A program made the translations under genes and the position numbers. A stretch of DNA of 64,000 nucleotides from Vigna angularis (taxonomy: Eukaryota > Streptophyta > Magnoliopsida > Fabales > Fabaceae): contig NC_068970.1 of assembly GCF_016808095.1 (NCBI RefSeq), positions 47,465,630-47,529,629 of the forward strand. Reading direction: 5' to 3'. This document shows positions 17,721 to 60,591 of the stretch, in pieces. How positions within the stretch are numbered: the first letter of the stretch is position 1; each line of letters opens with the position of its first letter. The notes under the pieces are model-generated. The model searched no databases. It worked only from the letters and a program-made list of their open reading frames with translations, and was not told the origin of the DNA.

Positions 17721-20700
17721 TTGTTTAAAATGGTTGAATATCTTCATATGGATTCTCAAATTGATTCTAGTTTCATATCTGATTTCTGTTCATTCATCAA
17801 CGAAGTTGTAGAGGAAGATTTGACAAATAAATTTACCACAAATGAAATATTTCGTTCACGGGAGCACTTAATTGAATGGGTAAGAGGGATGACTTATGAT
17901 TTAGGATTTGTTGTGGTAATAGTAAGATCTGACATAGCTACTAGTGTACAGGGAAGAAAAACGTTCGTCATACTTAGATGTGAAAGAAGGGAGAAATATC
18001 GGAAATACAAAGTCGATGCGGTGGCTAGTGTATACAGAACTCTAAATATGAGTGTCCGTTTAGATTAAAGGGTAAACCATGTTTAGATGAGGACGGATGG
18101 GTGTTGAGGTGATGTGTGGACATCACAACCATGAGTTGGCTGAAACTTTAGTTGGTCACTCTTATGCTGGCAGGTTAAATATGAGTGAGCAATCATTACT
18201 AGTTGATATGACAAAGAGTAAAGTTACACCTACAAATATTTTATTAACCTTAAAAGAAAATAATGATCGAAATGTCACAACAATTAAAGAAATCTACAAC
18301 GCAAGGCAAGCGTATAAACGATCATTGAGAGGGTCCAGAACTAAACTACAACAGCTTATGATGTTGTTGGACCAGGATAAGTACATTCATTGGAGCAGGT
18401 GTGCTGACGATTCAGAGGTTGTTACTGACCTATTTTGGACACATCCTAATGCGGTGAAATTCTTAAACTCATTTAATGTTGTATTTTTTATGGACTTCAC
18501 ATATAAAGCAAACAAATATAGACTTCTGTTGCTTGAGATTGTGGGCATGACGTCTACAGGGTTAACCTTCTCAGCCGCGTTTGGTTTCTTGTTTATTGAA
18601 AGGAAAAGTAATTTCACATGGGCTTTGGAAAAGCTAAAAGGTTTATTTTTGAACATCTAAGGGTGGTCCTAAAGTCATTGTCACTGACCGAGACTTGGCT
18701 TTGATGAATGTTCATTGCAAATGTATTCCCTGAGTCATATCAGATGTTATGTCGATTCCACATCCTTAAAAATGTTAAAGCTAAATGAAAAATGTTAGTT
18801 AATTCTACTAAGGCTTGGGATGTGTTGATGGATGCATGGGAAAAGGTGATGGATTGTGCTTATCAGACCTTGTTTGTTGAGTATGTGAATGGTCTTTAAT
18901 ACGCGAGTAGTTCATGGCTTCTCACTAGTGTAGAAAGGGCATTTAATGTCTGTTATATTGGCCTTTTAACGTCAACTCTAGAACTGACGTCTTTGTGGGT
19001 GACGTTAATCAAACGTCGGACTCAAACAGGTCCGACGTCTTTATAGACGTCGGTTACTGCATGACCTCGACGTCTAAAGGGCTCCATAGACGTCGGACAT
19101 TGCATTAACTGACATCTACTACATCTCTTGTCTTTGGGTAACGTAGTAGCACCTTCTTCCTTTGCTAGTTTCGTCATAGAAAAGGTTGCGTCTTTTGGAT
19201 CTCTTATGGCATTTCAACCGAAAACCGAATATGGGTCATTGCCTAGTTCCATTAAAACCGCCAATGAAAACGAACGGTGACAATAGAACTAGGCAATGAC
19301 CGAAGTTCAGTTTTTGGTTGAAACGCTATAAGACATCCAAAAGACGCAAGCTTTTCTTACGAGGAAACTAGCAAAGGGAGACTGCGATACAACCCTACCC
19401 TAAGACACGAGAAAAACTGCACCAAAACACAACAAAAACTCATTTTAATCGGTTCAAATGAAAGATAATCAACCAAAGACTAATATAATCGAAATAAAAC
19501 TACGTTTAAACAGTTCAAAAGAGACAAAAACGCACCTAGAAAAGCAATGCCGCAGAGAGAAAAAGCGAGAAGGAAGAGGATGAAGTGCTCGTAACAGCAG
19601 GTTTGGTGTTTGATTCAACAACAAACTAGACGTCGGCTCCCCAGGTGAACCGACGTCTATTCTAGCCTAGACGTCGGGGTCCTCACATATATGATGTCCA
19701 AAACAACTTTTCATCAAGCCATTTAGACGTCGGATGGCGTGATCCGACGTTTGTACGGCGAAAGAAAATGACTTTTCATCTACCTGTCAGACATATACAC
19801 GTCCGTTAGGAGGGGCACCGACGTCTATAATCGAATATAGATGTCAGGGTGACGGGATCGGACGTCTCTAAGGCGAAAAAAAAATGATTTTTCACCTACT
19901 TGTCAAGCATTAAGAGGCCAGTTAGGAGGGGCTCCGACGTCTATAATAATATAGACGTCGGGGCCCATCCTAACCGACGTCTATATGTCCACTTATTTAC
20001 GAAAATGTCACCGGTCAATAATTTACGTTGGTTATTTTGTGGTCCGACGTCTACGGGGTGACGTTAAAGCCCAATTTTGCACTAATGTCTGTTATGTGAA
20101 TATGTGAATCAGACATGGATTAATTCGTACAGTACATACTTTATAAAGTTATGGACGAACAGAGTAATGCATTTAGGGAACACAACCACAAATAGGTATG
20201 TTGTAATGTTATTTTACTTATTTGTTTTGTAGATAAATATTTTTTTGCACTTGTTGATGATTTTTCTTTTATTTTAGGGTTGAATCTGCTCATTGGAGCC
20301 TGAAGAAAGTTTTGGGCAATAGTATGGGTGATTTATGTTCTTGGTTGGATAGTATTCATAACGTCGTTATCCTACAACACAACAAGATTAAGGCATCATT
20401 TGAAAGAAGTTTGTTGCTCACAAGTGACTTTTTTAAAGGATATAGATATAGAAAACTTATTGGGTGTGTCTCTCCATATGTATTGGATCTCATTGTTGAG
20501 GAATTGGAAAGAGTGCAGCAGATAGGATTGGACTCATCAAAGTGTGGATGCGTATTGAGATGTACATTTGGTGTCCCCTGTGCATGTGAATTAGCACGCT
20601 ATAATCCTGGGATGATCCATTTGGGTGAATTTCATATCATGTGGCGAAGATTGCATTTCTCAAATGTTGAATTAAATGAAACCAGGCTCCAATTATCCAT

Positions 20701-21320
20701 TAAAGATGAGTTGAAACAAGTAGAAGAACGATTCAATGAGGTTGACATTGGAGGTAAAGTCACCATCAAGCAGAAGTTACTTGACATTACTTGTCCTATA
20801 ATGACATCAATGGTCCCTCCATTACATAAAGTCAAGACAAAGGATGCACAAAAAAGTAAAGTTCAACGAAGAGAAAGGTCTACTATGCGGGATCCATCAT
20901 ATTTTGAGCATGTGGACTCCTTTCATTCAACCTATGAATCTTCATCTGTGAGAAGTAAATTACAATCAAAGCCAATTGTAGTGAAGAAAAGAAGAGTTCC
21001 AATGATAGACCAGTTTCATTCTATTACTCACACCTTCATTGTGGACGTTGTTGATGTTGTGGCTGATGGTCATTGTGGATATAGATGGTCAGTCAATGGC
21101 GTGATGAATACGCAAGTCTAGTAGAAGGCTATGATAGACTAGAAGAACTGAGGAAGTCTTTGTTGGTGCAGTCACAGTCAGCGGTAAGTGTTTCCCGTTT
21201 TATGTATTTTATTTATTATATTTATTTTTTCTAACAACTTGTTTTATTCACTACAGGCTAATAGGAACAAGTGGATGACATTACTAGACATTGGTTATGT
21301 AATTGCTAACTGATATAATG
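17721..21320 (+). pseudogene. MULE transposase with C-terminal OTU-like domain (5' and middle part)
   Basis: Starts at about 17721 with a FAR1/MuDR-type N-terminal domain (REHLIEWVRGMTYDLGFVVVIVRSD) and loses frame near 18060. It continues as CGHHNHELAETLVGHSYAGR, then the MULE catalytic core: first Asp in FFMDFTYKANKYR, second in VTDRDLALM (after a stop at 18658), and the Glu in NRVESAHWSLKK (20275). An intron at 20196-20277 has clean GT/AG ends. A SWIM-like zinc motif follows (CGCVLRCTFGVPCACE). The C-terminus enters an OTU-like cysteine protease start, VVADGHCGYRW (20,070-21,090 frame). A second intron ends at 21257 (ttcactacag). Transposases of this family bind the TIRs and cut them. Frameshifts, stops and two insertions make it a pseudogene. 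Confidence 0.88.
18920..20090. mobile_element. CACTA-type foldback element, 1165 bp
   Basis: The element is 18923-20087, flanked by TCT (18920-18922 and 20088-20090), a 3-bp duplication typical of CACTA. The ends are CACTAGTGTAGAAAGGGC and, inverted, CATTAGTGCAAAATTGGGC. Many GACGTCGG/CCGACGTC repeats lie in both subterminal regions. The centre (19160-19376) is a long imperfect inverted repeat with arms of about 90 bp. There is no coding capacity, so it is non-autonomous. It splits the MULE transposase between the second Asp and the Glu. Confidence 0.85.
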
Positions 21321-21323
21321 TCA
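21121..21323 (+). other. MULE transposase tail up to the retroelement insertion
   Basis: A frameshift near 21090 separates ADGHCGYRW from the next conserved block, which reads RLEELRKSLLVQSQSA before the intron and NKWMTLLDIGYVIAN after it. It reaches a TGA where the family has Arg. The 5 bases GTCAT (21319-21323) are the left target copy for the retrotransposon dimer. Confidence 0.75.
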
Positions 21324-23823
21324 TTGATGAATCATTATTTTCTTCACTGCACTTAGTTTATTATGCTAAATTTAATTAGGGAATTGTGCTTAATTGTTCA
21401 GTATTTTCCTGTTTTCACTAAATGTGCTTAGTTTGATCAGAAATTCTTATTTTACTTAATTTGAATTATCTGAGACTAATTACTTACATTATTGAGTGCA
21501 AGGAAAATTCTGTAAATATTTTGGGACATTTGGAAGGACATTCATTTGTATACGGTGTTATTTTACTGAAGCATTGATATATTTTTAGTGAAAGACTTGT
21601 TGATCCGTTTTGGAGGGAGGATCTTAATTCATTTTGTTGAGCTTCTTTAGTTGCTGCAAGGAGGTTTCATCTACCGAATAGAAAAGAAAGGGCAGCTGCA
21701 CTCATTCAATTATTAATTCATCACGGGTTCTTGGAGGGGGCATGCTGATTTTTAACACTTGCTTTACAAGTGAACGGTGCTTTAATGTGTGTGAAAGTGA
21801 GATTTTAATTTTTATTGAATGAGGGCTTGATGGGCTCGTGCTGCAGCATTTGGTAAGAAAGAGTGATGTTAAATAAATAAAGAATGTACATGGGAAACAC
21901 CATGTCCCACACGTCCTCTCAATGGTAAAGAAGGTGATGATAGCACATTGCATAAGGAAATTGGAGAAGTGTTTATGCTAATTCACGTAGCACATGTCAC
22001 ACGGCCAATTATTTTTAGCAAGCATCATTTTAAGTGGAAGGAGGGGACCACAACAAAGAGCTCACGGTTACACAAGACCCCATATGGAATTTCATTTCAG
22101 CAAGCATTTAGTAACTTCAAATGCAGCAACAATAACATCCAGCAGCTTACGTCCAAAGCAAAGTTGGAAGAAGTGAATGCACATGTTAAGGGAAGTGTCT
22201 CGGCCTGGATAGAGCTGGAGCAGTCTCTACCAAGCAGCAGCAGCACGTTGCTGGCTGGGAGGAAAGACATCCACCATGGCAGCAGATTGAAGCCGCAGTC
22301 TAACATCTTCACGCTCCCAGCTGGTCCAGCAACTCCCATCCAGTGCCCATGGCAACATCTCACGTCCAACAACCTTAGTCCAGTAGCTTGGATGAAAGCA
22401 TCTCACGGCTGGAAGCAACAACACTTCACAGCTGCAAGCTTCATTCACACCTCATGGCAGCAAGGAGGTCCAGCAACGTCTAGCACCACCAACACCAGAA
22501 GAAGCCAGCAACGTTGGAGAAAAGCAAGCAGGAGATAGCCCATGGGTAGCTTCAAAGAAGGAGAACCATATGAAGAAGCTTGGTGGGTTTCATAGCAGCA
22601 TGCACTCCAGCCACCTTGAAGAAAGAAACAAAAGAAGTGGCACCCATGGTGTTGGATTTTAAATGAAAGAGAAGGAGAAAGTGATGTGTTGATCACGGCT
22701 GTTTGGGAGCAAAGATGCAGCTGTCCACACATCCAGATTACAGCAGGAAGCACCATCCAGCCATCACACCACCAGAAACACCTCACGGCCTTGGTGCAGC
22801 AGCAAACCATCCAGCATTCACACTTCACACGGACATGGAAGAGCACTAGCAAAGAGAAGCCAATACATGGCCTTGGAAGAAGGTGAAGCATCCATAGAAG
22901 AGAATCATCCAGCAACCGTGAGCAAAGAGCTGGAATGAGAACGTGTTGGAGCAGCTGAGTTTGAAGAAGAAAGAGCTGGTCCAGTAAAGGAAATACTCCA
23001 CATCCAGCAGCTTGGAAGCATAGAGGAAGGCACGGATGCTGCATATCCAGCAGCCATAATCACGGCTTGATGGAAGTAGAAGAATCCAAGGTGTAAAAGA
23101 TGACAGAATGGAGGGCCCTCACCCTATTTTCTCACGGGAAGGCAAAAGGAGAGGCTCACGGGAGTAGCTTAATTGGGCTATAAAATGGAGCAGCAGAGAA
23201 GTAGAAATCATTAGTTTAGGAGTAGAGTTAAGAGTTATGTTCTGAGTTTCTCCTCCCCTTTTGGGGGAGGTTTTGTGTTTGATTCAATTTCCAGTTTCCA
23301 GAATTGAATTTTAATTGTATTTTCCAATTCAGTTGCATTTCTTAATTGATGTTCGTTGAAATTTATTTTCATTTATCATTTTCTGAAATTATCGTTTTAT
23401 GAATTTACCATTTTCTAAACTCTCTTTATTTTACCGTCTACTGTTACGTTTTATGCATGTTTACAGTTCCAGTATTTTAATTTCAAACACTGTGTAATTT
23501 TCCCTTTTCCATTTTTACCGTCTTTTACCGCTTGTTTTTACCGTCATTAAAATTTATTTCAGTATGTTTAAATTCAGTTGTGTTTAATTTAATTTCCAGT
23601 CCACTTTAATTTTATTTTACTTCAGTTTTATTTAATTTCCAATTTTAAATTTTATTTTTCTGCATCCAAAAACTTTCACAAACCCCCCCCCCCCCCCCTT
23701 CGTGTTAGATCTAAGACTTAACCGATATTTGGTCCTTGAGAGACGACCTAGGAGTCACTTCCTAGTTATACTGCATTATTAATATCTGCAATCAACTTTT
23801 GATGGGCCGCGACAGCTTCATCA
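21324..23823 (+). repeat. LTR 1 of the dimer
   Basis: About 2.5 kb, TGATGAATCA to CAGCTTCATCA. The U3 region is rich in CATCCAGC and CACGG motifs (about 22100-23160). TATA box at 23179. A GC hairpin CTCCTCCCCTTTTGGGGGAGG lies near 23252. A run of 16 C lies at about 23683-23698. It differs from LTR 2 and 3 by a T at about 21410. Long open stretches in the U3 are conserved only because the copies are new. Confidence 0.93.
23179..23185 (+). promoter_or_regulatory. LTR 1 TATA box
   Basis: TATAAAA in GGGCTATAAAATGGAGC, with transcription expected about 30 bases downstream. Identical boxes are at about 31343 (LTR 2) and 39519 (LTR 3). This would drive the sense RNA containing the gag-like gene. 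Confidence 0.7.
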
Positions 23824-23827
23824 AAAA

Positions 23828-23845
23828 TGGCGCCGTTGCCGGGGA
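23828..23845 (+). other. Primer binding site, tRNA-Asp type (copy 1)
   Basis: TGGCGCCGTTGCCGGGGA begins four bases after LTR 1 and is the complement of the 3' end of plant tRNA-Asp as I know it. This primer is typical of Athila-lineage elements. The second copy is at 31998-32015. Confidence 0.88.
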
Positions 23846-24301
23846 TCAATAACGGTTCGGTTTTAGATTTTTGTTGTATAAAGTTTTGTTCTGTTAATAT
23901 GTTTGTTTTGTGTGTTTTGTCTTGTATATTTTTGTAGGCGACAACGACACCTTCAGCAAATTTTGGCGGCGTTGTCACTTCAGTTCAGGTTCTTGTTTTA
24001 GATTTTTACTGTTTTTGTTTTGTTACGTGGTTGTAATATATGTTTTGTCTTTTATATTTTTATTGTGTTGTGTTTTGTATTATATCTGTTAATTAAAAAA
24101 AAAATTAATTAATAAAAAAATTTAAAAAAAAAAAAAAAAATTGTTCTGTCTTGTTTATGTCTGAAGCATGTTTAATTGTGTTGTGTTTTATTTTGTGTTG
24201 TGATGTGATGTTCTATTTTCTGTATGCATGTCATGTATTTTATCTGTTAATTAAATTTTTTTTTTTCTTTCCTGTGTTTTATTTTGAAATTTTCTTTTTA
24301 G

Positions 24302-25678
24302 ATGTCTACCTATTTTAATTTTGTGAACAATGTTTATTCTGCCGATACCTCTAATTATGAATCTCCTTCTGCATGGTACTTTAATTATTCTGCTGATTTT
24401 TGTAATGAGAACAATATTGCGCATCCTCTGGTGAGGGGCGTACATGATGATGTTGCCCAGTCTATATCAGATTTTGAAAGCAAGTTGGACGATAAGATTG
24501 ACTCTCTTGAGAAGTTGGTGACACAATTGACTACCAACAGGAGATCTACATCTCCATCTGCGTCTGTTGCACGACTATGTGCTATTTGTCTTTCCAGTAA
24601 CCACTATACAGATGCATGTCCTTCTTTGCAGCACCATGTTGCCTCTGATGCGCCTCAAGCTTATTCTACGAACATCTACAACAGGCTACAAAAACAACAA
24701 CAACAGCAGATGCAATTTTATGATGCTCCCTTTCAAATAACTCCTCAACCTTCAACTTCTGAACCTACATTGAAGGAGTTATTAGAGCAGATGACCATGC
24801 AGAATCTCAAGTTCAAGCAAGAGAGCATGAAGATCCAGCAGGAAACTCAAGCTGCCATGCAGAATCTGAGTAATCAGATCAGGCAGATGGTCACTCTTGC
24901 ACCTGAGGAGAATGCTGAAGTTTTTGAGGACCAGGCAAGAATAAGCAGTACTATGGAGCCAGGTAGACCATTTTTATCTTCCACCGTGGAGGTAAGTGTA
25001 CCGCAACTTGAATGTGCAGTTGATGAATTGGAAATTCATGAGAAAATTTCTACTGAGCAAAAACATGTTTATTCTGAAACTGATATAGATTTGATTGACA
25101 ATTCTGAAGTTTTTGATTCAGTATTAGTTTCTGAAACCATTGATATAAATGTTGTGTTGAATGAACATGATTACAGTGATGAAATTTCCATTGATAATAG
25201 CTTGGAACTGAATGTGGATTTTGTTGATAATGCATATGTCAATATTGATTTTGAGACAGGAATTTTGCAATCGCATAACATGATAGAGTTAGAACAAAAT
25301 TTCGATCTGACTCAGTTTTCTGAGAATTGTGAATGTGATTGTGAATCTGGTTCTTGCCCGATTTGTATTGAAATTGATTATGTGTTACAAACAGATTCTG
25401 AATTCATAACAGATGTTATTGATTATGAGTTTGATGACCAGGTTACAAAAGTAAATGAGAATACAGGTATTACTCCGGTGTCTCAGACTCAACAACTGCT
25501 GGTGGACAGAAGGCTCCTCATTTTATTGATACAACAACTTGCTCGGAGAAGAAGCAAGAAAACTCTTGATTTGAGTAAGACGGCAGTACTGGGCGAGCTG
25601 CTCCTGAAGACATCTTCGCCGGATCCTGAGGTGGAAGATATATCACTGATGGCCCAGAATTGGCAACTGCCACCATGA
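24302..25678 (+). CDS. Gag-like protein of the dimer, copy 1
   Basis: 458 codons from ATG in TTTTTAGATGTCTACC. A short coiled-coil-prone segment (DFESKLDDKIDSLEKLVTQL, about 57-76) leads to a zinc knuckle C93-C96-H101-C106 (C-x2-C-x4-H-x4-C). Then come a Gln-rich linker, repeated QNL/QQETQAAMQNLSNQIRQ heptad-like text as in Athila-type gag, and an acidic C-terminal half rich in Asp/Glu/Ile. No protease, RT or integrase follows. A stub capsid seems to be missing at the N-terminus. Likely role: RNA binding during assembly with proteins supplied by another element. The acidic half is unlike gag and unexplained. The frame is kept in both copies. Confidence 0.8.
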   Translation: MSTYFNFVNNVYSADTSNYESPSAWYFNYSADFCNENNIAHPLVRGVHDDVAQSISDFESKLDDKIDSLEKLVTQLTTNRRSTSPSASVARLCAICLSSNHYTDACPSLQHHVASDAPQAYSTNIYNRLQKQQQQQMQFYDAPFQITPQPSTSEPTLKELLEQMTMQNLKFKQESMKIQQETQAAMQNLSNQIRQMVTLAPEENAEVFEDQARISSTMEPGRPFLSSTVEVSVPQLECAVDELEIHEKISTEQKHVYSETDIDLIDNSEVFDSVLVSETIDINVVLNEHDYSDEISIDNSLELNVDFVDNAYVNIDFETGILQSHNMIELEQNFDLTQFSENCECDCESGSCPICIEIDYVLQTDSEFITDVIDYEFDDQVTKVNENTGITPVSQTQQLLVDRRLLILLIQQLARRRSKKTLDLSKTAVLGELLLKTSSPDPEVEDISLMAQNWQLPP

Positions 25679-26500
25679 CCAGGGAGCACTCTTTTTCCTC
25701 ATTATGTACATAGCTTTTCTGGTGTGTTTTGATGGTTGCATTTATTTCGTTTTATTTTTTTTAAATTGTGGGCATAAAAATTAAAAAAAAAATTGTGATA
25801 TAATATTTTGTTTTAAGCGTATCAAATCTTTATTTTGATATGTGTATTTATTTCTTAGTTTACGAATCATTTTTTTTTTAAAAAAAAAAAAAAAAGAAAA
25901 AAAAAGAGAAGAAAAAAAAAGAGAAAAAAAAAAGAGTTTTTGTGTTTTGTTTCAAGTATGTTATTTTGTTAATATATGTTAATATATGTTTTGTAATTAT
26001 GTTTTTTGTTTGCTGTTTTTGACATATGTGTTTTATCCGCTTTGATATTTTAATTCTGTATTAGGTCTGTTGTTTCGTTATTATGTGTTCTGTTTTTATT
26101 TATTTATTTTGTTTTTGTTAAAAAAAAATTATAAAAAAAAAAATAAAATAAAAATAATCTAAGAGCATAATTAACATGTAAGGGCAGAGAGGTGTAATTT
26201 GAGCTGAAACTATCTGAGTACTTTTATTGAAAACCAAATTCACCGAAAACATTTTGTCTTACTTTGTTAATTATAATAATATTAATAAAAAAAACATAAT
26301 AAAACATGGGCAGTGATCGATCAGTAATGATCGTTAAGGATTACAGTCCAACAAAAAAAATAATAAAAATAAAATACATAAAAAGCATAATAAAGATGTT
26401 CGGAGGTCGATCTTTAGTGATCGTTAACATTACAGACCAAATAAAATAAAACACATAAAAAAAAAACATAAAAAACATAAAAACAAACAAACATAAAAAT
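25679..26500. other. A/T-rich spacer between gag-like and WOX-like genes, copy 1
   Basis: Contains A-tracts and GAAAAAAA purine runs (25870-25935). Two imperfect copies of a 25-30 bp sequence with AGTGATCGTTAA (about 26320 and 26415) lie just past the WOX-like stop and may be in its 3' untranslated region. Confidence 0.55.
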
Positions 26501-27049
26501 TTAAAACTGGAAGAATTCACGAGCTGGTTGTGGTGGTCTAAGGGAGAGCTCCGTTGAGGGAGCTCTGGTTCGGAATGTGAGAAGCATGGGTGGAGGGATT
26601 TGTCTCTCATCTCTATCATCGTCAATGATGATCGGAACGGGAAACAGATTCAGCAGCCTCGGTGCCCTCATTATCACCCAGTCGTATTCTTTCAACAAAA
26701 AAAAAAATTGTGTTAATAATTGTAGAGGAATGGAAAAAAATCAATAAAATTGAGGTGTGATCAGAGTCTTACCGTACATATATAGCGGCAGTTGTGAAAA
26801 CTGAGTGCCAGTGGGGTCTATCTCCGCTTGCCAGCGCCTGACCCGATTGCCGTGGTTGTTGAACCAGCAGTGCACGTTGTATTCGCTGGCATCTCCGAAC
26901 ATCCTTAGTCGAGACGTGATCTCGACAACTTGCGCTCTACTTGGGTGTGTGACCCCAAAGTTGTAGATTCTGGTCATCATCTGGGTCTGATTTTCGGTAG
27001 GACGCCACCGCTGACTGGTGTATCTCTCTGATTCTATCTCACTCATCAT
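26501..27049 (-). CDS. WUSCHEL-type (WOX-like) homeodomain gene inside the retroelement, copy 1
   Basis: Antisense to the element. Coding exons are 27049-26773 and 26688-26501, with splice signals TACG|GTAAGA and a T-rich tract ending GTTGAAAG|AA. The exons join in frame to 154 codons. Residues 13-73 are a WOX-type homeodomain: RWRPT, YNFGVTHP, ITSRLRMFG, NVHCWFNNH and R-R, with the helix-3 Trp, Phe and Asn kept. LLNLFPV near 104-110 resembles the WUS box (TLxLFP). TELSLRPP near the end resembles an EAR repressor motif. WOX proteins are plant DNA-binding regulators of stem-cell and organ programmes. The residues between motifs are quite diverged, so it could be an old capture or an element-specific gene. 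A leader exon and TATA box lie upstream (27696-27894). The second copy encodes the same protein. Confidence 0.75.
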
Positions 27050-27695
27050 TCCTCTCGATAAATTCTAAAAAAAAAAAATATATAAAAAAAAAAAAAACAA
27101 AAACATAAAAAATAAAAAACATAAAAATAAAATAAAAAAAAAAAAAAAACAGCAAAAAGCATAAAAAATTTTGTTCTGTGTTTTCTTTATTTTTTCTTGT
27201 TTCCTTTTTGATTTATTTGTCCAGTCTGTATGTGATGTTTCAGTGTCTGGTCTTAGATCTGTTTCACGGTCCTTGCAAAAGGGTCCTAAACGGATCTACG
27301 TCCAGTTGTCCTTGTCCATATTGTTCTTGTATATTATGTTTCTGTGTTTATTTTGTTTTAAGTGGGGTACGTGGCGTTGTTCTACCCGATTGTCTCTGCC
27401 ATACCTTCAAACGAAGGGAGATTAACGTCTGGTTTCCAGCCGATATACCCCTTAAATTTTAAGACAGTTATGTTTTAAGTGTTTTATGTTTAGAAAAAAA
27501 AAATTGAAAAGGGAGAGGAAGAGCAGGAAAGAGGAAAGCAGAGAAGAAAAATAAAGGAAAGCAGGAAATGGAAAATAAAAGGCAGAAAATAAAGAAGAAC
27601 GAAGTGCATAAAGGAAGGGAACAGGCAGGAAAAGCTTAAAGGGGAGTATGGAAAGAAATTACATGAAGGAAAGAAGGAAGGTGTCGAGGACTTAC
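27050..27695 (-). other. Intron 1 and leader splice sites of the WOX-like gene, copy 1
   Basis: On the minus strand the leader exon ends CTCCAG|GTAAGTCC (donor at 27695-27694). A U-rich intron of about 630 bp ends TTTTTTTTTTTTAG (27067-27065). The next exon starts 15 bases before ATGATGAGTGAG. Both sites fit the plant consensus closely. Confidence 0.7.
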
Positions 27696-27894
27696 CTGGA
27701 GTAGTAGGCTGGCAGAGAAGCTCCTCGGGGTTCTCACACTCTTCAGATGGCACCAGGGCAGAGGCTCCGCAGAGATTCCAGACGCTCAGGTTGAAAGAGA
27801 GAGGAGAGCGGAGAGGAGAAGAGAGAGAAGGGAGGATTAGAGAGAGAGACTAGGTCAGAAAATGTTGCTCGACGCTGAGATTGGCCTATTTATA
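27696..27894 (-). promoter_or_regulatory. TATA box and leader exon of the WOX-like gene, copy 1
   Basis: TATAAATA on the minus strand (27894-27887, within CCTATAAATAGGCC) is followed after about 30 bases by a pyrimidine-rich leader (TCTCTCTCTAATCCTCCC) with no ATG, ending at the donor at 27696. It looks like a real plant core promoter pointing against the element's own transcription. The copy 2 box is at 36061-36068. Confidence 0.65.
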
Positions 27895-27973
27895 GGCAAA
27901 TTGTTTCCACTGTAGCAACAGTTCCGGTCGTTGCCACCGAGACTGTTGTCACAGTAACGGTCATCCTTTTTTC

Positions 27974-28004
<31 letters not shown>

Positions 28005-29488
28005 GCATCTACTGATGGATGTTACTAAAGAATTTCTTCCCTATTTCCTAACTTTTTATTGCACTTATCTATATTATTTGATTGCTCTGAAATTGATAAT
28101 CTGACGATTGTGACACACTGAGGACATTGTGTGATTTAAGTGTGGTCTACTGGGAAGAAATTCTGATTTTTCTGTTAGTTTCTGTTAGTATGTATTTTGT
28201 GTGTTAAATTTTTTGTTTTTGAGTGTTAAATTTTTCTGTTTCAAGTTGTTTTTAGTGTGTTTTGTGTGCAATAAATTTTACATTTTTCTCTTGATTTCTG
28301 GATTATCTAAATTGTAGATTTTTCCTTCACTTACTTACTACTTATAGATTGTAATCCTTGCTTTTCTTTGCTTGGAAAGATGATTATACGTTTGAGAGGT
28401 TGATTTGATTGTGACGAATACCCTGTGAGAGATTTGAGCCACTTAATTTTCTTTCTTGTGTGTGATATGTATCTTGAATGCTTGCATATATGCCTTGGCT
28501 TGATTCTTTTTGATATACTTGATTGATATACATGTTCAGACGTGATAAAGGCATTTTTGTTCTTGAGCCTCTTTAGCCAAATAAGCCTACCCTGCTATTA
28601 TCCTTTGAAACCCCTTTGAGCCTATACTGTATTTATTTCCTTGTGATTGAAGCTCATACACTGATCCTAAGTAAAAACAATGATTACCTAAAACGTAGGA
28701 AAGTCTGGAGCTACAGAAGTGTTTTGTGAAAAAGTGTGGTCTCCTTGGGAATTCTGATGAATTGGCTAGTTAGTTCCTCATCATGTTTTGAAAATATGAA
28801 TTATATCCTGTTGTGTGATAAAAAAAAAAAAAAAGACAGGATGAAAAAAAAAATTGATGAGAAAAAGAGAGGAAAATGAAAAATAATTTTGAGGACAATG
28901 GAGTCGAGAAGAGGATTGAATTAGAGGTTTGGGTGAGATTTGACTGTATTTCCTTGTTTTCCCCAGTGCTCCTCTAATTCTTCTGAGATCTAGCTACTTT
29001 TCCAAATTTATCCTTCCTTGTCCTTGGCCTCATTACAACCCCTAAAAGACCTTTTGATCTGAACATGCATATGTTTTAAGTATTGATAATTAGAAGCTTG
29101 CCAAGTCTACTTGTGTTTGTTTTCTTGAGTACATCGAGCTGATATTATTATTTACCCTAGACACTTGAGAGAAACACTGTGAGTGCATCTGTGAGGTTTT
29201 GTTATTTTTGAATCACCTCTTGAACTGATTAATCATTTTGCTATGTATTGAATTGCTTGGATGATTTCTATAAGTATCTGCTATTCTTGATTTTGTGTTG
29301 GATAATTTCTACTTCTTTTATTTGTCCAGAATTCTTGAGAACTGTGTAAATTTTATTTGTTTTCTTGCGAATTTTTATTTTTCTGTCTGCTGAGTTTTGT
29401 GTCACCCTCCCCAAATGTCCTTTGAACCATTCCTTGATTTGCGTCTTAATTTTGCCCAGGAGTGCAAAAGACTAAGTGTGGTCTATTT
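27895..29488. other. 3' internal non-coding region of the retroelement, copy 1
   Basis: No long reading frame. It holds a run of about 29 A (27976-28001) and repeated phrases GAGGACA-TG and TAAGTGTGGTCTA (about 28128, 28887 and 29474). In Athila-type elements these mark the approach to the polypurine tract. A clear purine tract next to LTR 2 is not visible. Confidence 0.6.
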
Positions 29489-31993
29489 TGATGAATCATT
29501 ATTTTCTTCACTGCACTTAGTTTATTATGCTAAATTTAATTAGGGAATTGTGCTTAATTGTTCAGTATTTTCCCGTTTTCACTAAATGTGCTTAGTTTGA
29601 TCAGAAATTCTTATTTTACTTAATTTGAATTATCTGAGACTAATTACTTACATTATTGAGTGCAAGGAAAATTCTGTAAATATTTTGGGACATTTGGAAG
29701 GACATTCATTTGTATACGGTGTTATTTTACTGAAGCATTGATATATTTTTAGTGAAAGACTTGTTGATCCGTTTTGGAGGGAGGATCTTAATTCATTTTG
29801 TTGAGCTTCTTTAGTTGCTGCAAGGAGGTTTCATCTACCGAATAGAAAAGAAAGGGCAGCTGCACTCATTCAATTATTAATTCATCACGGGTTCTTGGAG
29901 GGGGCATGCTGATTTTTAACACTTGCTTTACAAGTGAACGGTGCTTTAATGTGTGTGAAAGTGAGATTTTAATTTTTATTGAATGAGGGCTTGATGGGCT
30001 CGTGCTGCAGCATTTGGTAAGAAAGAGTGATGTTAAATAAATAAAGAATGTACATGGGAAACACCATGTCCCACACGTCCTCTCAATGGTAAAGAAGGTG
30101 ATGATAGCACATTGCATAAGGAAATTGGAGAAGTGTTTATGCTAATTCACGTAGCACATGTCACACGGCCAATTATTTTTAGCAAGCATCATTTTAAGTG
30201 GAAGGAGGGGACCACAACAAAGAGCTCACGGTTACACAAGACCCCATATGGAATTTCATTTCAGCAAGCATTTAGTAACTTCAAATGCAGCAACAATAAC
30301 ATCCAGCAGCTTACGTCCAAAGCAAAGTTGGAAGAAGTGAATGCACATGTTAAGGGAAGTGTCTCGGCCTGGATAGAGCTGGAGCAGTCTCTACCAAGCA
30401 GCAGCAGCACGTTGCTGGCTGGGAGGAAAGACATCCACCATGGCAGCAGATTGAAGCCGCAGTCTAACATCTTCACGCTCCCAGCTGGTCCAGCAACTCC
30501 CATCCAGTGCCCATGGCAACATCTCACGTCCAACAACCTTAGTCCATTAGCTTGGATGAAAGCATCTCACGGCTGGAAGCAACAACACTTCACAGCTGCA
30601 AGCTTCATTCACACCTCATGGCAGCAAGGAGGTCCAGCAACGTCTAGCACCACCAACACCAGAAGAAGCCAGCAACGTTGGAGAAAAGCAAGCAGGAGAT
30701 AGCCCATGGGTAGCTTCAAAGAAGGAGAACCATATGAAGAAGCTTGGTGGGTTTCATAGCAGCATGCACTCCAGCCACCTTGAAGAAAGAAACAAAAGAA
30801 GTGGCACCCATGGTGTTGGATTTTAAATGAAAGAGAAGGAGAAAGTGATGTGTTGATCACGGCTGTTTGGGAGCAAAGATGCAGCTGTCCACACATCCAG
30901 ATTACAGCAGGAAGCACCATCCAGCCATCACACCACCAGAAACACCTCACGGCCTTGGTGCAGCAGCAAACCATCCAGCATTCACACTTCACACGGACAT
31001 GGAAGAGCACTAGCAAAGAGAAGCCAATACATGGCCTTGGAAGAAGGTGAAGCATCCATAGAAGAGAATCATCCAGCAACCGTGAGCAAAGAGCTGGAAT
31101 GAGAACGTGTTGGAGCAGCTGAGTTTGAAGAAGAAAGAGCTGGTCCAGTAAAGGAAATACTCCACATCCAGTAGCTTGGAAGCATAGAGGAAGGCACGGA
31201 TGCTGCATATCCAGCAGCCATAATCACGGCTTGATGGAAGTAGAAGAATCCAAGGTGTAAAAGATGACAGAATGGAGGGCCCTCACCCTATTTTCTCACG
31301 GGAAGGCAAAAGGAGAGGCTCACGGGAGTAGCTTAATTGGGCTATAAAATGGAGCAGCAGAGAAGTAGAAATCATTAGTTTAGGAGTAGAGTTAAGAGTT
31401 ATGTTCTGAGTTTCTCCTCCCCTTTTGGGGGAGGTTTTGTGTTTGATTCAATTTCCAGTTTCCAGAATTGAATTTTAATTGTATTTTCCAATTCAGTTGC
31501 ATTTCTTAATTGATGTTCGTTGAAATTTATTTTCATTTATCATTTTCTGAAATTATCGTTTTATGAATTTACCATTTTCTAAACTCTCTTTATTTTACCG
31601 TCTACTGTTACGTTTTATGCATGTTTACAGTTCCAGTATTTTAATTTCAAACACTGTGTAATTTTCCCTTTTCCATTTTTACCGTCTTTTACCGCTTGTT
31701 TTTACCGTCATTAAAATTTATTTCAGTATGTTTAAATTCAGTTGTGTTTAATTTAATTTCCAGTCCACTTTAATTTTATTTTACTTCAGTTTTATTTAAT
31801 TTCCAATTTTAAATTTTATTTTTCTGCATCCAAAAACTTTCACAAACCCCCCCCCCCCCCCCCCCCCCTTCGTGTTAGATCTAAGACTTAACCGATATTT
31901 GGTCCTTGAGAGACGACCTAGGAGTCACTTCCTAGTTATACTGCATTATTAATATCTGCAATCAACTTTTGATGGGCCGCGACAGCTTCATCA
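29489..31993 (+). repeat. LTR 2 (central) of the dimer
   Basis: Same sequence as LTR 1, with C at the position that is T in LTR 1 and two private substitutions (about 30547 and 31172). The C run is longer (22). It serves as 3' LTR of the first unit and 5' LTR of the second. Confidence 0.93.
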
Positions 31994-31997
31994 AAAA

Positions 31998-32015
31998 TGG
32001 CGCCGTTGCCGGGGA
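31998..32015 (+). other. Primer binding site, tRNA-Asp type (copy 2)
   Basis: Identical to 23828-23845 and at the same distance from LTR 2. Confidence 0.85.
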
Positions 32016-32473
32016 TCAATAACGGTTCGGTTTTAGATTTTTGTTGTATAAAGTTTTGTTCTGTTAATATGTTTGTTTTGTGTGTTTTGTCTTGTATATT
32101 TTTGTAGGCGACAACGACACCTTCAGCAAATTTTGGCGGCGTTGTCACTTCAGTTCAGGTTCTTGTTTTAGATTTTTACTGTTTTTGTTTTGTTACGTGG
32201 TTGTAATATATGTTTTGTCTTTTATATTTTTATTGTGTTGTGTTTTGTATTATATCTGTTAATTAAAAAAAAAATTAATTAATAAAAAAATTTAAAAAAA
32301 AAAAAAAAAAAATTGTTCTGTCTTGTTTATGTCTGAAGCATGTTTAATTGTGTTGTGTTTTATTTTGTGTTGTGATGTGATGTTCTATTTTCTGTATGCA
32401 TGTCATGTATTTTATCTGTTAATTAAATTTTTTTTTTTCTTTCCTGTGTTTTATTTTGAAATTTTCTTTTTAG

Positions 32474-33850
32474 ATGTCTACCTATTTTAATTTTGTGAAC
32501 AATGTTTATTCTGCCGATACCTCTAATTATGAATCTCCTTCTGCATGGTACTTTAATTATTCTGCTGATTTTTGTAATGAGAACAATATTGCGCATCCTC
32601 TGGTGAGGGGCGTACATGATGATGTTGCCCAGTCTATATCAGATTTTGAAAGCAAGTTGGACGATAAGATTGACTCTCTTGAGAAGTTGGTGACACAATT
32701 GACTACCAACAGGAGATCTACATCTCCATCTGCGTCTGTTGCACGACTATGTGCTATTTGTCTTTCCAGTAACCACTATACAGATGCATGTCCTTCTTTG
32801 CAGCACCATGTTGCCTCTGATGCGCCTCAAGCTTATTCTACGAACATCTACAACAGGCTACAAAAACAACAACAACAGCAGATGCAATTTTATGATGCTC
32901 CCTTTCAAATAACTCCTCAACCTTCAACTTCTGAACCTACATTGAAGGAGTTATTAGAGCAGATGACCATGCAGAATCTCAAGTTCAAGCAAGAGAGCAT
33001 GAAGATCCAGCAGGAAACTCAAGCTGCCATGCAGAATCTGAGTAATCAGATCAGGCAGATGGTCACTCTTGCACCTGAGGAGAATGCTGAAGTTTTTGAG
33101 GACCAGGCAAGAATAAGCAGTACTATGGAGCCAGGTAGACCATTTTTATCTTCCACCGTGGAGGTAAGTGTACCGCAACTTGAATGTGCAGTTGATGAAT
33201 TGGAAATTCATGAGAAAATTTCTACTGAGCAAAAACATGTTTATTCTGAAACTGATATAGATTTGATTGACAATTCTGAAGTTTTTGATTCAGTATTAGT
33301 TTCTGAAACCATTGATATAAATGTTGTGTTGAATGAACATGATTACAGTGATGAAATTTCCATTGATAATAGCTTGGAACTGAATGTGGATTTTGTTGAT
33401 AATGCATATGTCAATATTGATTTTGAGACAGGAATTTTGCAATCGCATAACATGATAGAGTTAGAACAAAATTTCGATCTGACTCAGTTTTCTGAGAATT
33501 GTGAATGTGATTGTGAATCTGGTTCTTGCCCGATTTGTATTGAAATTGATTATGTGTTACAAACAGATTCTGAATTCATAACAGATGTTATTGATTATGA
33601 GTTTGATGACCAGGTTACAAAAGTAAATGAGAATACAGGTATTACTCCGGTGTCTCAGACTCAACAACTGCTGGTGGACAGAAGGCTCCTCATTTTATTG
33701 ATACAACAACTTGCTCGGAGAAGAAGCAAGAAAACTCTTGATTTGAGTAAGACGGCAGTACTGGGCGAGCTGCTCCTGAAGACATCTTCGCCGGATCCTG
33801 AGGTGGAAGATATATCACTGATGGCCCAGAATTGGCAACTGCCACCATGA
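32474..33850 (+). CDS. Gag-like protein of the dimer, copy 2
   Basis: The same 458-residue protein as at 24302, with no residue difference seen. It keeps the zinc knuckle at 93-106 and the acidic C-terminal half. It sits at the same place in the second internal region, behind LTR 2 as its potential promoter. Confidence 0.8.
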   Translation: MSTYFNFVNNVYSADTSNYESPSAWYFNYSADFCNENNIAHPLVRGVHDDVAQSISDFESKLDDKIDSLEKLVTQLTTNRRSTSPSASVARLCAICLSSNHYTDACPSLQHHVASDAPQAYSTNIYNRLQKQQQQQMQFYDAPFQITPQPSTSEPTLKELLEQMTMQNLKFKQESMKIQQETQAAMQNLSNQIRQMVTLAPEENAEVFEDQARISSTMEPGRPFLSSTVEVSVPQLECAVDELEIHEKISTEQKHVYSETDIDLIDNSEVFDSVLVSETIDINVVLNEHDYSDEISIDNSLELNVDFVDNAYVNIDFETGILQSHNMIELEQNFDLTQFSENCECDCESGSCPICIEIDYVLQTDSEFITDVIDYEFDDQVTKVNENTGITPVSQTQQLLVDRRLLILLIQQLARRRSKKTLDLSKTAVLGELLLKTSSPDPEVEDISLMAQNWQLPP

Positions 33851-34672
33851 CCAGGGAGCACTCTTTTTCCTCATTATGTACATAGCTTTTCTGGTGTGTT
33901 TTGATGGTTGCATTTATTTCGTTTTATTTTTTTTAAATTGTGGGCATAAAAATTAAAAAAAAAATTGTGATATAATATTTTGTTTTAAGCGTATCAAATC
34001 TTTATTTTGATATGTGTATTTATTTCTTAGTTTACGAATCATTTTTTTTTTAAAAAAAAAAAAAAAAGAAAAAAAAAGAGAAGAAAAAAAAAGAGAAAAA
34101 AAAAAGAGTTTTTGTGTTTTGTTTCAAGTATGTTATTTTGTTAATATATGTTAATATATGTTTTGTAATTATGTTTTTTGTTTGCTGTTTTTGACATATG
34201 TGTTTTATCCGCTTTGATATTTTAATTCTGTATTAGGTCTGTTGTTTCGTTATTATGTGTTCTGTTTTTATTTATTTATTTTGTTTTTGTTAAAAAAAAA
34301 TTATAAAAAAAAAAATAAAATAAAAATAATCTAAGAGCATAATTAACATGTAAGGGCAGAGAGGTGTAATTTGAGCTGAAACTATCTGAGTACTTTTATT
34401 GAAAACCAAATTCACCGAAAACATTTTGTCTTACTTTGTTAATTATAATAATATTAATAAAAAAAACATAATAAAACATGGGCAGTGATCGATCAGTAAT
34501 GATCGTTAAGGATTACAGTCCAACAAAAAAAATAATAAAAATAAAATACATAAAAAGCATAATAAAGATGTTCGGAGGTCGATCTTTAGTGATCGTTAAC
34601 ATTACAGACCAAATAAAATAAAACACATAAAAAAAAAACATAAAAAACATAAAAACAAACAAACATAAAAAT
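33851..34672. other. A/T-rich spacer, copy 2
   Basis: Same as 25679-26500 apart from homopolymer lengths. Confidence 0.55.
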
Positions 34673-35221
34673 TTAAAACTGGAAGAATTCACGAGCTGGT
34701 TGTGGTGGTCTAAGGGAGAGCTCCGTTGAGGGAGCTCTGGTTCGGAATGTGAGAAGCATGGGTGGAGGGATTTGTCTCTCATCTCTATCATCGTCAATGA
34801 TGATCGGAACGGGAAACAGATTCAGCAGCCTCGGTGCCCTCATTATCACCCAGTCGTATTCTTTCAACAAAAAAAAAAATTGTGTTAATAATTGTAGAGG
34901 AATGGAAAAAAATCAATAAAATTGAGGTGTGATCAGAGTCTTACCGTACATATATAGCGGCAGTTGTGAAAACTGAGTGCCAGTGGGGTCTATCTCCGCT
35001 TGCCAGCGCCTGACCCGATTGCCGTGGTTGTTGAACCAGCAGTGCACGTTGTATTCGCTGGCATCTCCGAACATCCTTAGTCGAGACGTGATCTCGACAA
35101 CTTGCGCTCTACTTGGGTGTGTGACCCCAAAGTTGTAGATTCTGGTCATCATCTGGGTCTGATTTTCGGTAGGACGCCACCGCTGACTGGTGTATCTCTC
35201 TGATTCTATCTCACTCATCAT
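34673..35221 (-). CDS. WUSCHEL-type (WOX-like) homeodomain gene inside the retroelement, copy 2
   Basis: Exons 35221-34945 and 34860-34673 encode the same 154 residues as copy 1, with the same splice signals. The leader exon ends at 35870 and the TATA box is at 36061-36068. Two identical copies only show the duplication is recent and are not evidence of selection. Confidence 0.75.
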
Positions 35222-35869
35222 TCCTCTCGATAAATTCTAAAAAAAAAAAAATATATAAAAAAAAAAAAAAACAAAAACATAAAAAATAAAAAACATAAAA
35301 ATAAAATAAAAAAAAAAAAAAAACAGCAAAAAGCATAAAAAATTTTGTTCTGTGTTTTCTTTATTTTTTCTTGTTTCCTTTTTGATTTATTTGTCCAGTC
35401 TGTATGTGATGTTTCAGTGTCTGGTCTTAGATCTGTTTCACGGTCCTTGCAAAAGGGTCCTAAACGGATCTACGTCCAGTTGTCCTTGTCCATATTGTTC
35501 TTGTATATTATGTTTCTGTGTTTATTTTGTTTTAAGTGGGGTACGTGGCGTTGTTCTACCCGATTGTCTCTGCCATACCTTCAAACGAAGGGAGATTAAC
35601 GTCTGGTTTCCAGCCGATATACCCCTTAAATTTTAAGACAGTTATGTTTTAAGTGTTTTATGTTTAGAAAAAAAAAATTGAAAAGGGAGAGGAAGAGCAG
35701 GAAAGAGGAAAGCAGAGAAGAAAAATAAAGGAAAGCAGGAAATGGAAAATAAAAGGCAGAAAATAAAGAAGAACGAAGTGCATAAAGGAAGGGAACAGGC
35801 AGGAAAAGCTTAAAGGGGAGTATGGAAAGAAATTACATGAAGGAAAGAAGGAAGGTGTCGAGGACTTAC

Positions 35870-36068
35870 CTGGAGTAGTAGGCTGGCAGAGAAGCTCCTC
35901 GGGGTTCTCACACTCTTCAGATGGCACCAGGGCAGAGGCTCCGCAGAGATTCCAGACGCTCAGGTTGAAAGAGAGAGGAGAGCGGAGAGGAGAAGAGAGA
36001 GAAGGGAGGATTAGAGAGAGAGACTAGGTCAGAAAATGTTGCTCGACGCTGAGATTGGCCTATTTATA
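35870..36068 (-). promoter_or_regulatory. TATA box and leader exon of the WOX-like gene, copy 2
   Basis: Same as 27696-27894: TATAAATA on the minus strand, pyrimidine-rich leader, and donor CAG|GTAAGT at 35870. Confidence 0.65.
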
Positions 36069-36146
36069 GGCAAATTGTTTCCACTGTAGCAACAGTTCCG
36101 GTCGTTGCCACCGAGACTGTTGTCACAGTAACGGTCATCCTTTTTT

Positions 36147-36180
<34 letters not shown>

Positions 36181-37664
36181 GCATCTACTGATGGATGTTA
36201 CTAAAGAATTTCTTCCCTATTTCCTAACTTTTTATTGCACTTATCTATATTATTTGATTGCTCTGAAATTGATAATCTGACGATTGTGACACACTGAGGA
36301 CATTGTGTGATTTAAGTGTGGTCTACTGGGAAGAAATTCTGATTTTTCTGTTAGTTTCTGTTAGTATGTATTTTGTGTGTTAAATTTTTTGTTTTTGAGT
36401 GTTAAATTTTTCTGTTTCAAGTTGTTTTTAGTGTGTTTTGTGTGCAATAAATTTTACATTTTTCTCTTGATTTCTGGATTATCTAAATTGTAGATTTTTC
36501 CTTCACTTACTTACTACTTATAGATTGTAATCCTTGCTTTTCTTTGCTTGGAAAGATGATTATACGTTTGAGAGGTTGATTTGATTGTGACGAATACCCT
36601 GTGAGAGATTTGAGCCACTTAATTTTCTTTCTTGTGTGTGATATGTATCTTGAATGCTTGCATATATGCCTTGGCTTGATTCTTTTTGATATACTTGATT
36701 GATATACATGTTCAGACGTGATAAAGGCATTTTTGTTCTTGAGCCTCTTTAGCCAAATAAGCCTACCCTGCTATTATCCTTTGAAACCCCTTTGAGCCTA
36801 TACTGTATTTATTTCCTTGTGATTGAAGCTCATACACTGATCCTAAGTAAAAACAATGATTACCTAAAACGTAGGAAAGTCTGGAGCTACAGAAGTGTTT
36901 TGTGAAAAAGTGTGGTCTCCTTGGGAATTCTGATGAATTGGCTAGTTAGTTCCTCATCATGTTTTGAAAATATGAATTATATCCTGTTGTGTGATAAAAA
37001 AAAAAAAAAAGACAGGATGAAAAAAAAAATTGATGAGAAAAAGAGAGGAAAATGAAAAATAATTTTGAGGACAATGGAGTCGAGAAGAGGATTGAATTAG
37101 AGGTTTGGGTGAGATTTGACTGTATTTCCTTGTTTTCCCCAGTGCTCCTCTAATTCTTCTGAGATCTAGCTACTTTTCCAAATTTATCCTTCCTTGTCCT
37201 TGGCCTCATTACAACCCCTAAAAGACCTTTTGATCTGAACATGCATATGTTTTAAGTATTGATAATTAGAAGCTTGCCAAGTCTACTTGTGTTTGTTTTC
37301 TTGAGTACATCGAGCTGATATTATTATTTACCCTAGACACTTGAGAGAAACACTGTGAGTGCATCTGTGAGGTTTTGTTATTTTTGAATCACCTCTTGAA
37401 CTGATTAATCATTTTGCTATGTATTGAATTGCTTGGATGATTTCTATAAGTATCTGCTATTCTTGATTTTGTGTTGGATAATTTCTACTTCTTTTATTTG
37501 TCCAGAATTCTTGAGAACTGTGTAAATTTTATTTGTTTTCTTGCGAATTTTTATTTTTCTGTCTGCTGAGTTTTGTGTCACCCTCCCCAAATGTCCTTTG
37601 AACCATTCCTTGATTTGCGTCTTAATTTTGCCCAGGAGTGCAAAAGACTAAGTGTGGTCTATTT
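36069..37664. other. 3' internal non-coding region of the retroelement, copy 2
   Basis: Same as 27895-29488; the long A run is slightly longer here. No gene seen. Confidence 0.6.
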
Positions 37665-40164: not shown

Positions 40165-40500
40165 GTCATCTTAGTGTGTATGTTATATTCTCAAAATTAT
40201 ACTATCTTCCCACTACGTTCCACACCACCTTCTGATATAACTCAGCATCGCTTAATTTGTATAGGACATGTTCATGGATATCATTTCGTGCAAGTAATTG
40301 TATTATTTTGTGCTTTAATTTTAAAATTACTTATCACTCAATTAACTATTGTAATTTGTATAATGCATGTTAAGCTACAAGAAGGTTGTCCTCTACCCAT
40401 GCTGAATATCATCTCCTCAACCCACTGTTATCCTGAGGCACGAGCGTGGTCATCTATTTATACTAGTAGGATGCAAACATTTGCACAATTGATGGCGTAA
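40165..40500 (+). pseudogene. OTU-like domain, C-terminal part of the MULE protein
   Basis: Directly after the right target copy the frame reads FPLRSTPPSD, HRLICIGHVHGYHFVQ and, after a short intron-like stretch from about 40290 to 40370, LQEGCPLPML and AWSSIYTSRM. This is the end of the OTU-like cysteine protease domain fused to plant MULE transposases of this type, and GHVHGYHF carries the expected catalytic His. Removing the dimer and one GTCAT puts this piece in frame with the part ending at 21323. OTU proteases remove ubiquitin; whether this one was active is unknown. Confidence 0.8.
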
Positions 40501-60440: not shown

Positions 60441-60591
60441 GGATTCGTTATGACTGTCTTTTGAAGGTTTTGTGGATGCATCATTAATGGAACACTTCAA
60501 GTTGGAATACTTCAATATTAAACAAATATAAACAAAATAATGAAGGGTATTGAGTAATGAAAAATGACTTTGGGGACACAAAATCAACTTT

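Follow-up and report, generated by a model that had tools for sequence, protein, structure and literature searches.

A WUSCHEL-related homeobox gene carried antisense by LTR retrotransposons of several backbone types in Vigna angularis, probably derived from one host gene

The window, by which we mean the whole 64-kb stretch of Vigna angularis DNA that was analysed, harbours a retrotransposon with the order LTR-internal-LTR-internal-LTR on the plus strand. Its LTRs of about 2.5 kb are 99.9% identical and bear TG...CA ends. LTR 1 (TGATGA...TCATCA) was found at 21325-23823, LTR 2, common to both tandem units, at 29489-31993 and LTR 3 at 37665-40164, the latter two by self-alignment and reading of their ends; a single mismatch and one gap separate LTR 1 from LTR 3 (99.92% identity). 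The two tandem units are 99.8% identical to each other, and the whole structure is flanked by the 5-bp target-site duplication GTCAT at 21320-21324 and 40165-40169. A primer binding site, TGGCGCCGTTGCCGGGGATC, was read from the sequence at 23828-23847 (plus strand) and is presumably of the tRNA-Asp type. LTR pair, target-site duplication and primer binding site, the features by which an LTR retrotransposon is recognised, are therefore all present. According to the open reading frame list, a gag-like frame of 458 amino acids with a CX2CX4HX4C motif occupies 24302-25678 and recurs in the second unit at 32474-33850, both on the plus strand. This frame gave no Pfam match of its own; its residues 30-134 are 67.6% identical to a frame of locus L089, which matches Retrotrans_gag. 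Since no further sense frame of more than 108 amino acids was found between LTR 1 and LTR 2, the element has no apparent pol and does not count as an autonomous LTR retrotransposon. Outside the element, a frame at 18091-18660, to its left, contains a MULE transposase domain (1.6e-8), an LTR fragment of about 78% identity lies on the opposite strand at 117-514, and tandem repeats with a period of about 274-283 bp extend from 58833 to 60476.

Between gag and the 3' LTR, on the minus strand, lies a gene of the WUSCHEL-related homeobox (WOX) type. It begins with a TATA box, TATAAATA, at 27887-27894, read from the sequence, followed by a pyrimidine-rich leader exon at 27696-27862, whose start was placed from the TATA box. 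A U-rich leader intron is predicted at 27065-27695 (CAG/GTAAGT...TTTTAG), with the junction sequence CAG/GTAAGT at 27698 and the terminal AG at 27065. The next exon (26773-27064) contains the ATG at 27049 and the WOX homeodomain, as indicated by the gene model, Pfam, PDB and selection. A coding intron of 84 nt (26689-26772, donor GT at 26772) and a last exon with the motifs LLNLFPV and ELSLRPP and the stop codon TAA at 26501 (26501-26688) were derived from the gene model and the comparison of copies. The second tandem unit holds a second copy of the gene at 34673-36068 (minus strand; gene model and self-alignment). The initial annotation had described a WOX-type homeobox gene antisense in an LTR retrotransposon, and every feature that it listed was recovered at the same coordinates on the minus strand. 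Rebuilding the gene model reproduced the in-frame join of the coding exons to 154 residues, and the motifs named there as WUS-box-like (LLNLFPV) and EAR-like (ELSLRPP) are present in the last exon. The additional claim that the gene has its own promoter and introns held for the core promoter, which is conserved, and for the coding intron, whose splice sites are kept; the leader intron appears less firmly supported than the coding intron, because its strict donor AGGTAAGT was found in only 4 of 13 promoter-bearing loci (L019, L026, L027 and the window).

A genome search with exon 1 of the window gene yielded at least 150 copies with 87-100% identity, located on C1 to C11 (150 of 621 candidates were scored and all 150 matched), and 145 of these 150 were free of internal stops. 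At 10 places among the 150, neighbouring WOX matches were 8.1-10.0 kb apart, with up to four units; examples are the window itself (21325-40164), C6:890918-917659, C6:1947086-1972123, C9:14399964-14416487 and C7:11219417-11238268. Tandem arrays of the element seem to be common in the genome, the LTR-sharing structure being known from the window only. In protein databases, 60 homologues were found, and the four largest clusters comprise 34, 62, 50 and 30 sequences. The nearest homologues of the window protein are hypothetical proteins of V. angularis. Among the matches listed in the protein searches, compact relatives came from V. angularis, V. umbellata and V. radiata. One later search, whose query included the ordinary WOX2-like protein P0079, listed 120 of 3317 matches, and the non-Vigna matches used as homeodomain rows were P0079, P0092 and P0115 only. 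Some element-type proteins of Vigna (P0062, P0063, P0065, P0068, P0069, P0071, P0073, P0074) are annotated as WUSCHEL-related homeobox. A total of 80 stretches around homeodomain matches, chosen for WOX-like length, were split by reading into 20 ordinary host WOX genes and 60 stretches of the element type, the latter consisting of 29 of clade A (window-like), 2 of clade B and 29 of clade C. Decayed copies exist, since the aligned exon is interrupted by in-frame stops in six of the 29 clade C stretches (L049, L050, L051, L054, L058, L059).

The assignment of the protein to the WOX family was borne out by the homeodomain searches. Pfam recognised the domain with an E-value of 1.3e-6 (28.5 bits versus a cut-off of 22.9), and in a PDB sequence search with E up to 0.1 the window protein matched only the WOX proteins STENOFOLIA (6.7e-11) and WUSCHEL (1.8e-10). 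The AlphaFold model employed was that of P0002, which is 89% identical to the window protein; its confidence is low overall (mean pLDDT 64), with a well-predicted part of three helices (18-29, 37-47 and 55-76). The 11 best PDB folds retrieved for this model by Foldseek were all WOX homeodomains, nine of them WUSCHEL. The WUS-box has the motif T-L-x-L-F-P, and the corresponding region reads TLDLFPI in clade C proteins and LLNLFPV in the window copy, where T is replaced by L. EAR-like repression motifs follow LxLxL; at this site ELSLRPP was found in the window and many other copies and VLSLRPP, ALSLRPP or ELTLRPP in some. Changes have accumulated in the recognition helix, where NHKAR of the host WUS clade reads NHGNR, NHSNR, NYGYR, NHGYR or NREYR in the elements, and clade A elements have N for Q ahead of the invariant N. 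With such an altered recognition helix, the DNA targets of the element WOX proteins may differ from those of the host WOX proteins.

In order to compare the carriers, the WOX cassette was masked, and co-linear DNA matches sorted 22 loci into four backbone families and the single locus L093. Family 1 consists of the window, L016, L019 and L023, all four with an Asp-type primer binding site (that of L023 lies in the overlapping stretch L089). Family 2 comprises L022, L026, L027, L028 and L092, family 3 L009-L011, L013-L015, L017, L018 and L025, and family 4 L012, L024 and L091, where L012 was placed by 1.9 kb that possibly stem from a neighbouring element. A different primer binding site, TGGTATCAGAGC, which we take to be of the tRNA-Met type, follows the LTR-type end TTACA in L010, L013, L014, L015 and L025 of family 3 and in L024 and L091 of family 4. 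A tRNA-Met primer binding site is described as not used by non-chromoviruses (PMC6317226), and by this site the seven loci are classed as chromovirus or Ty1/copia. In L009, L011, L017 and L018 it was not found, and in L012 it was found only on the far side of the WOX gene. The pol of L026 and that of L028 contain RVT_3 between RNase H and integrase (at 645-752 in L026). An aRH in this position is a feature of Tat (Ogre/Retand) elements (PMC6317226), and L026 and L028 are classed as Tat-like by their domain order. Athila elements are characterised by a pol free of aRH and a non-chromovirus primer binding site (PMC6317226). The pol of L023, which is related to the window element, consists of RT, RNase H and integrase, with no RVT_3 at E 0.001, and the primer binding site of L089 is of the Asp type with one mismatch; the backbone of the window, whose own element is devoid of pol, looks Athila-like.

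L089 and L023, which overlap on C1, are bordered by two LTRs that share 99.8% identity over 2553 bp, the stretch ending within the right one, and between them lie a gag with Retrotrans_gag, RT, RNase H, integrase and then an antisense clade C WOX gene. L024 has LTRs with 99.75% identity, the target-site duplication CCCGG and a tRNA-Met-type primer binding site, and apart from the WOX frame its stretch has no open frame that reaches 200 amino acids. L091 on C7 and L024 on C10 are 99.5% identical over 4.1 kb including the LTR ends. L024 was itself inserted within the apparent primer binding site of an Athila-like element, and past this site a gag-like fragment follows. Judged by these markers, the same WOX cassette is present in at least three unlike LTR backbones, namely Athila-like, Tat-like (with aRH) and with a tRNA-Met-type primer binding site. 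The initial annotation had spoken of one element with a WOX gene as cargo; the location inside an LTR element was confirmed, the restriction to one element had to be given up.

The orientation of the WOX gene relative to its carrier was readable in 15 of the 22 loci and was antisense in all 15; the count leaves out L009, L011, L012, L017, L018, L027 and L092. The orientation followed from the primer binding site in 11 cases (window, L016, L019, L023 with L089, L010, L013, L014, L015, L024, L025 and L091), from pol in L026 and L028, from the gag frame in L022 and from a PPT-like run in L093. The order was pol, WOX, LTR in L023, and in L026 and L028, where no 3' LTR was delimited, the gene likewise comes after pol. 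What characterises an antisense accessory ORF (aORF-3R), namely antisense direction, many copies, conservation as protein and a place between pol and 3' LTR, was therefore found for the WOX gene, the last of these in L023. The promoter recurs as well. Pattern search on the minus strand of the window detected a distal palindrome, ACTGTGACAACAGT, at 27942-27955 and a proximal one, ACTGTTGCTACAGT, at 27909-27922, and before the second gene copy the corresponding palindromes at 36083-36096 and 36116-36129. The module consists of ACCGG[A/C]ACTGTNNNNACAGTG, in which up to 3 mismatches were observed, about 13 bases, a TATA-like box (TATAAAT, TACAAAT or variants) and then GAGCGACATTT or similar. Together with the palindrome ACTGTN4ACAGT it was found in 13 of 19 upstream regions, from clades A, B and C and from backbone families 1 to 4, and the exact palindrome in 11 of 19. 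The module pattern was not found in 6 of the 19 regions, of which L009 and L012 hold the exact palindrome. Each WOX copy of the 64-kb window is preceded by two exact palindromes, and the window holds no others. A role of the palindrome in controlling the LTR too was considered and rejected, since exact palindromes lie only ahead of the two WOX copies of the window. Situated next to the TATA box, the palindrome is a candidate operator, perhaps for the WOX protein itself.

Comparing WOX clades and carriers, clades A and C were found in families 1, 2 and 4 and clades C and B in family 3. As the clades are spread over the backbone families, a given WOX clade is not tied to a given backbone. The window element is co-linear with members of families 2 and 4 only over roughly the transcription unit (26353-27989 versus L026, 26353-27939 versus L028, 26317-27617 versus L024), and in some copies (L107, L113) the two exons come from different subfamilies, so that the WOX genes of L094-L113 look mosaic. 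Both observations together indicate recombination between elements. The limits of this homology would also fit a small mobile unit which inserts the WOX cassette into LTR elements. A free inserter is, however, expected in both orientations, whereas all 15 readable loci are antisense, and the switch of subfamily between the exons speaks for recombination; we regard such a unit as improbable.

Selection on the frame was studied in two samples of copies, which have the window in common. In 30 copies of clade A, including both window copies, exon 1 showed a pN/pS of 0.201 compared to 1.91 and 1.09 in the shifted sense frames (27 unique of 30; L027, which is cut off, and 3 identical sequences were dropped, L088 with a frameshift and L072 with one stop were kept). 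For exon 2 a pN/pS of 0.247 compared to 1.29 and 1.26 was obtained (23 unique of 30; 7 identical sequences were dropped, and L027 has no exon 2), and a codon bootstrap with 12 sequences gave 0.15-0.35. The second sample comprised the window and 20 further copies that closely resemble it. Here, values of 0.167 versus 1.49 and 1.61 for exon 1 (20 of 21, one identical sequence dropped) and of 0.143 versus 1.84 and 1.79 for exon 2 (16 of 21, five dropped as identical or of another length) were determined. Antisense frame 1 was also low, with 0.27 in the exon 1 set and 0.32 in the exon 2 set, because it has its third positions in common with the WOX frame. A codon model for 26 sequences (L088 and 3 identical sequences left out, a single stop codon in L072 replaced by a gap) preferred an omega of 0.25 (lnL -1440.2) over an omega of 1 (lnL -1482.5) by 42 log units on a coarse grid. 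Sorted by pS bin (22 sequences), pN/pS was 0.36, 0.22, 0.15, 0.20 and 0.20, with the highest value in the closest pairs, a trend which would fit a replicating lineage under selection whose copies decay once they have inserted. We were aware of the fact that copies picked by homeodomain score or by similarity to window exon 1 are enriched for intact ones; exon 2, which is linked to exon 1, took no part in the picking and gave the same answer. In L094-L113, which were picked by their exon 1, divergence is much greater in exon 2 than in exon 1 (pS 0.28 versus 0.08), partly due to the picking. All 51 exon 2 readings (30 and 21, with the window in both) were open to a stop near the same place. The donor GT of the coding intron was kept in 29 of 30 and 20 of 21 copies and the acceptor AG in 30 of 30 and 21 of 21. 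Since the intron is not a multiple of three in 18 of 30 and 12 of 21 copies, the frame of those copies exists only after splicing. Neutral decay of the WOX frame, one half of the outcome that would have contradicted the earlier reading, was thus not observed: with pN/pS at 0.14-0.25 and the other sense frames at 1.09-1.91, the frame is under strong purifying selection in the copies examined.

These values bear on two further explanations. The uniform antisense direction and the recurring promoter would suit selection for an antisense RNA, for example for silencing or timing of the sense genomic RNA, a possibility which was raised for other antisense ORFs (PMC7264820). Nevertheless, the constraint acts on codons and not on bases, pS being four- to seven-fold above pN, and the frame is re-established by splicing although the introns differ in phase. 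We hold it unlikely that the RNA is selected instead of the protein; the RNA may have a second role. Alternatively, a WOX gene or pseudogene captured once might be passive cargo which hitchhikes, its conservation reflecting recent amplification. Some carriers are young, as judged from their LTRs in the window and L024, hitchhiking alone could multiply a gene, and decayed copies were found. Clades of only about 35-50% protein identity still keep the homeodomain and the LFPI-type and ELSLR-type motifs, however, and in L024 the WOX frame appears to have outlasted gag and pol; together with the low pN/pS this makes passive carriage very unlikely. Strong selection on the homeodomain in combination with WUS-box-like and EAR-like motifs argues for the element WOX protein being a transcriptional repressor.

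To investigate the origin of the gene, a tree was built from 66 homeodomain columns. In this tree, the 27 element rows formed one clade (support 99/99, 100% of 200 bootstrap trees), apart from the 23 ordinary WOX rows, which were composed of 20 rows of the adzuki host and 3 of other plants. One capture of a host WOX gene probably stands behind the element copies; given the few columns and the long branches that meet, a single origin is favoured and not proven. In the best tree the elements were placed beside six host rows (91/82), presumably the intermediate WOX clade, while alternative placements stand with the WUS clade (p-AU 0.418) and with the WOX13-like rows (p-AU 0.268). That host WOX genes expanded for the plant's own use and LTR elements inserted around them, as the gene names given by annotators to some copies might suggest, is most improbable in view of copies between LTRs with a primer binding site, target-site duplications for the window and L024, the near-identity of L091 and L024 up to the LTR ends, arrays at 8-10 kb spacing and an element clade separate from host WOX.

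Hence, we are rather confident in a protein-coding accessory gene of LTR retrotransposons, which probably goes back to one host WOX capture. The antisense placement would allow an intron-bearing gene with its own promoter to survive copying through RNA, because splicing of the genomic RNA would remove its introns if it lay in sense orientation. Transfer of the cassette among the backbones would have taken place via recombination between elements. Its protein would act in the nucleus, bind DNA and repress transcription to the benefit of the element, most likely in meristem or germline-precursor cells, and the palindrome might serve as its own operator. With regard to the targets, we tentatively favour host cell-fate genes, at somewhat less than an even chance; regulation of the elements' own transcription is possible, at lower probability, and the remainder falls to some other function. 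The most far-reaching version is doubtful to us: Asian Vigna retrotransposons would share a stolen stem-cell regulator across unlike backbones, which alters meristem or germline-precursor identity or opens their own transcription there, so that insertions become inherited. If true, elements that compete with one another would maintain and exchange, as a common good, a developmental transcription factor of a selfish kind. A WOX frame kept intact in several kinds of elements does suggest an advantage of the elements' own. For practical purposes, element copies may inflate the number of WOX genes counted in Vigna genomes, and such copies could explain the significant expansion of the WOX family reported for V. 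reflexo-pilosa (PMC10357499).

The initial annotation knew of no described WOX-carrying retrotransposon family, and in agreement with this no description of a WOX-carrying LTR family was found in the open-licence literature. A survey of extra ORFs considered those of at least 250 codons (PMC6317226), a limit which a spliced gene of 154 residues would escape. Another survey, of 121 angiosperm genomes, reported 15 unusual domains, nine of which are PMD, G-patch, AIR1, DUF1409, YgdH, L26, B3, ArgoL2 and 2-ODD (PMC9289625, section 12). The terms "homeo" and "Vigna" each occur 0 times in its main text, so that the species surveyed there may not cover the Vigna case. Antisense additional ORFs were described in plant Ty3/gypsy elements, namely Grande gene23, RIRE2, Retand TRP28 and pvRetro ORF2 with an SMC domain (PMC7264820, PMC11963269, PMC4093653). 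Like the WOX gene, they are antisense in the 3' part of the element, some are nuclear or DNA-binding, and for Grande an own promoter is cited there. They are, however, described as lacking clear similarity to other proteins (PMC7264820), whereas the window-type gene encodes a recognisable host-type transcription factor, contains introns and resides in unlike backbones. The AlkB-type 2-ODD domain in Ty3/gypsy elements of orchids is likewise a host-like domain that is kept across subfamilies, but it is an RNA demethylase, tested in vitro (PMC9289625). Citrus LTR elements with LONELY GUY (YgdH) resemble the present case in carrying a growth regulator inside plant LTR elements (PMC9289625), yet LONELY GUY is an enzyme family of cytokinin activation and not a transcription factor. 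In bdelloid rotifers, the same accessory ORF types (ORF3) are found across unrelated retroelement lineages, there as enzymes (esterase, exonuclease) and in animals (PMC5408684). With the host proteins WUSCHEL and STENOFOLIA the element protein shares the WOX homeodomain fold, and its motifs resemble their WUS-box and EAR motifs; unlike them it is compact (about 150 amino acids), multicopy, mobile and changed in its recognition helix. It has been known for a long time that plant LTR elements contain antisense accessory ORFs, though none with a function that could be recognised. In comparison, the WOX cassette encodes a developmental regulator that can be named and whose fold is known, with repression-type motifs of known kinds, a conserved candidate operator and measured selection; these properties, together with its presence in unlike elements, make the role of antisense accessory genes directly testable.
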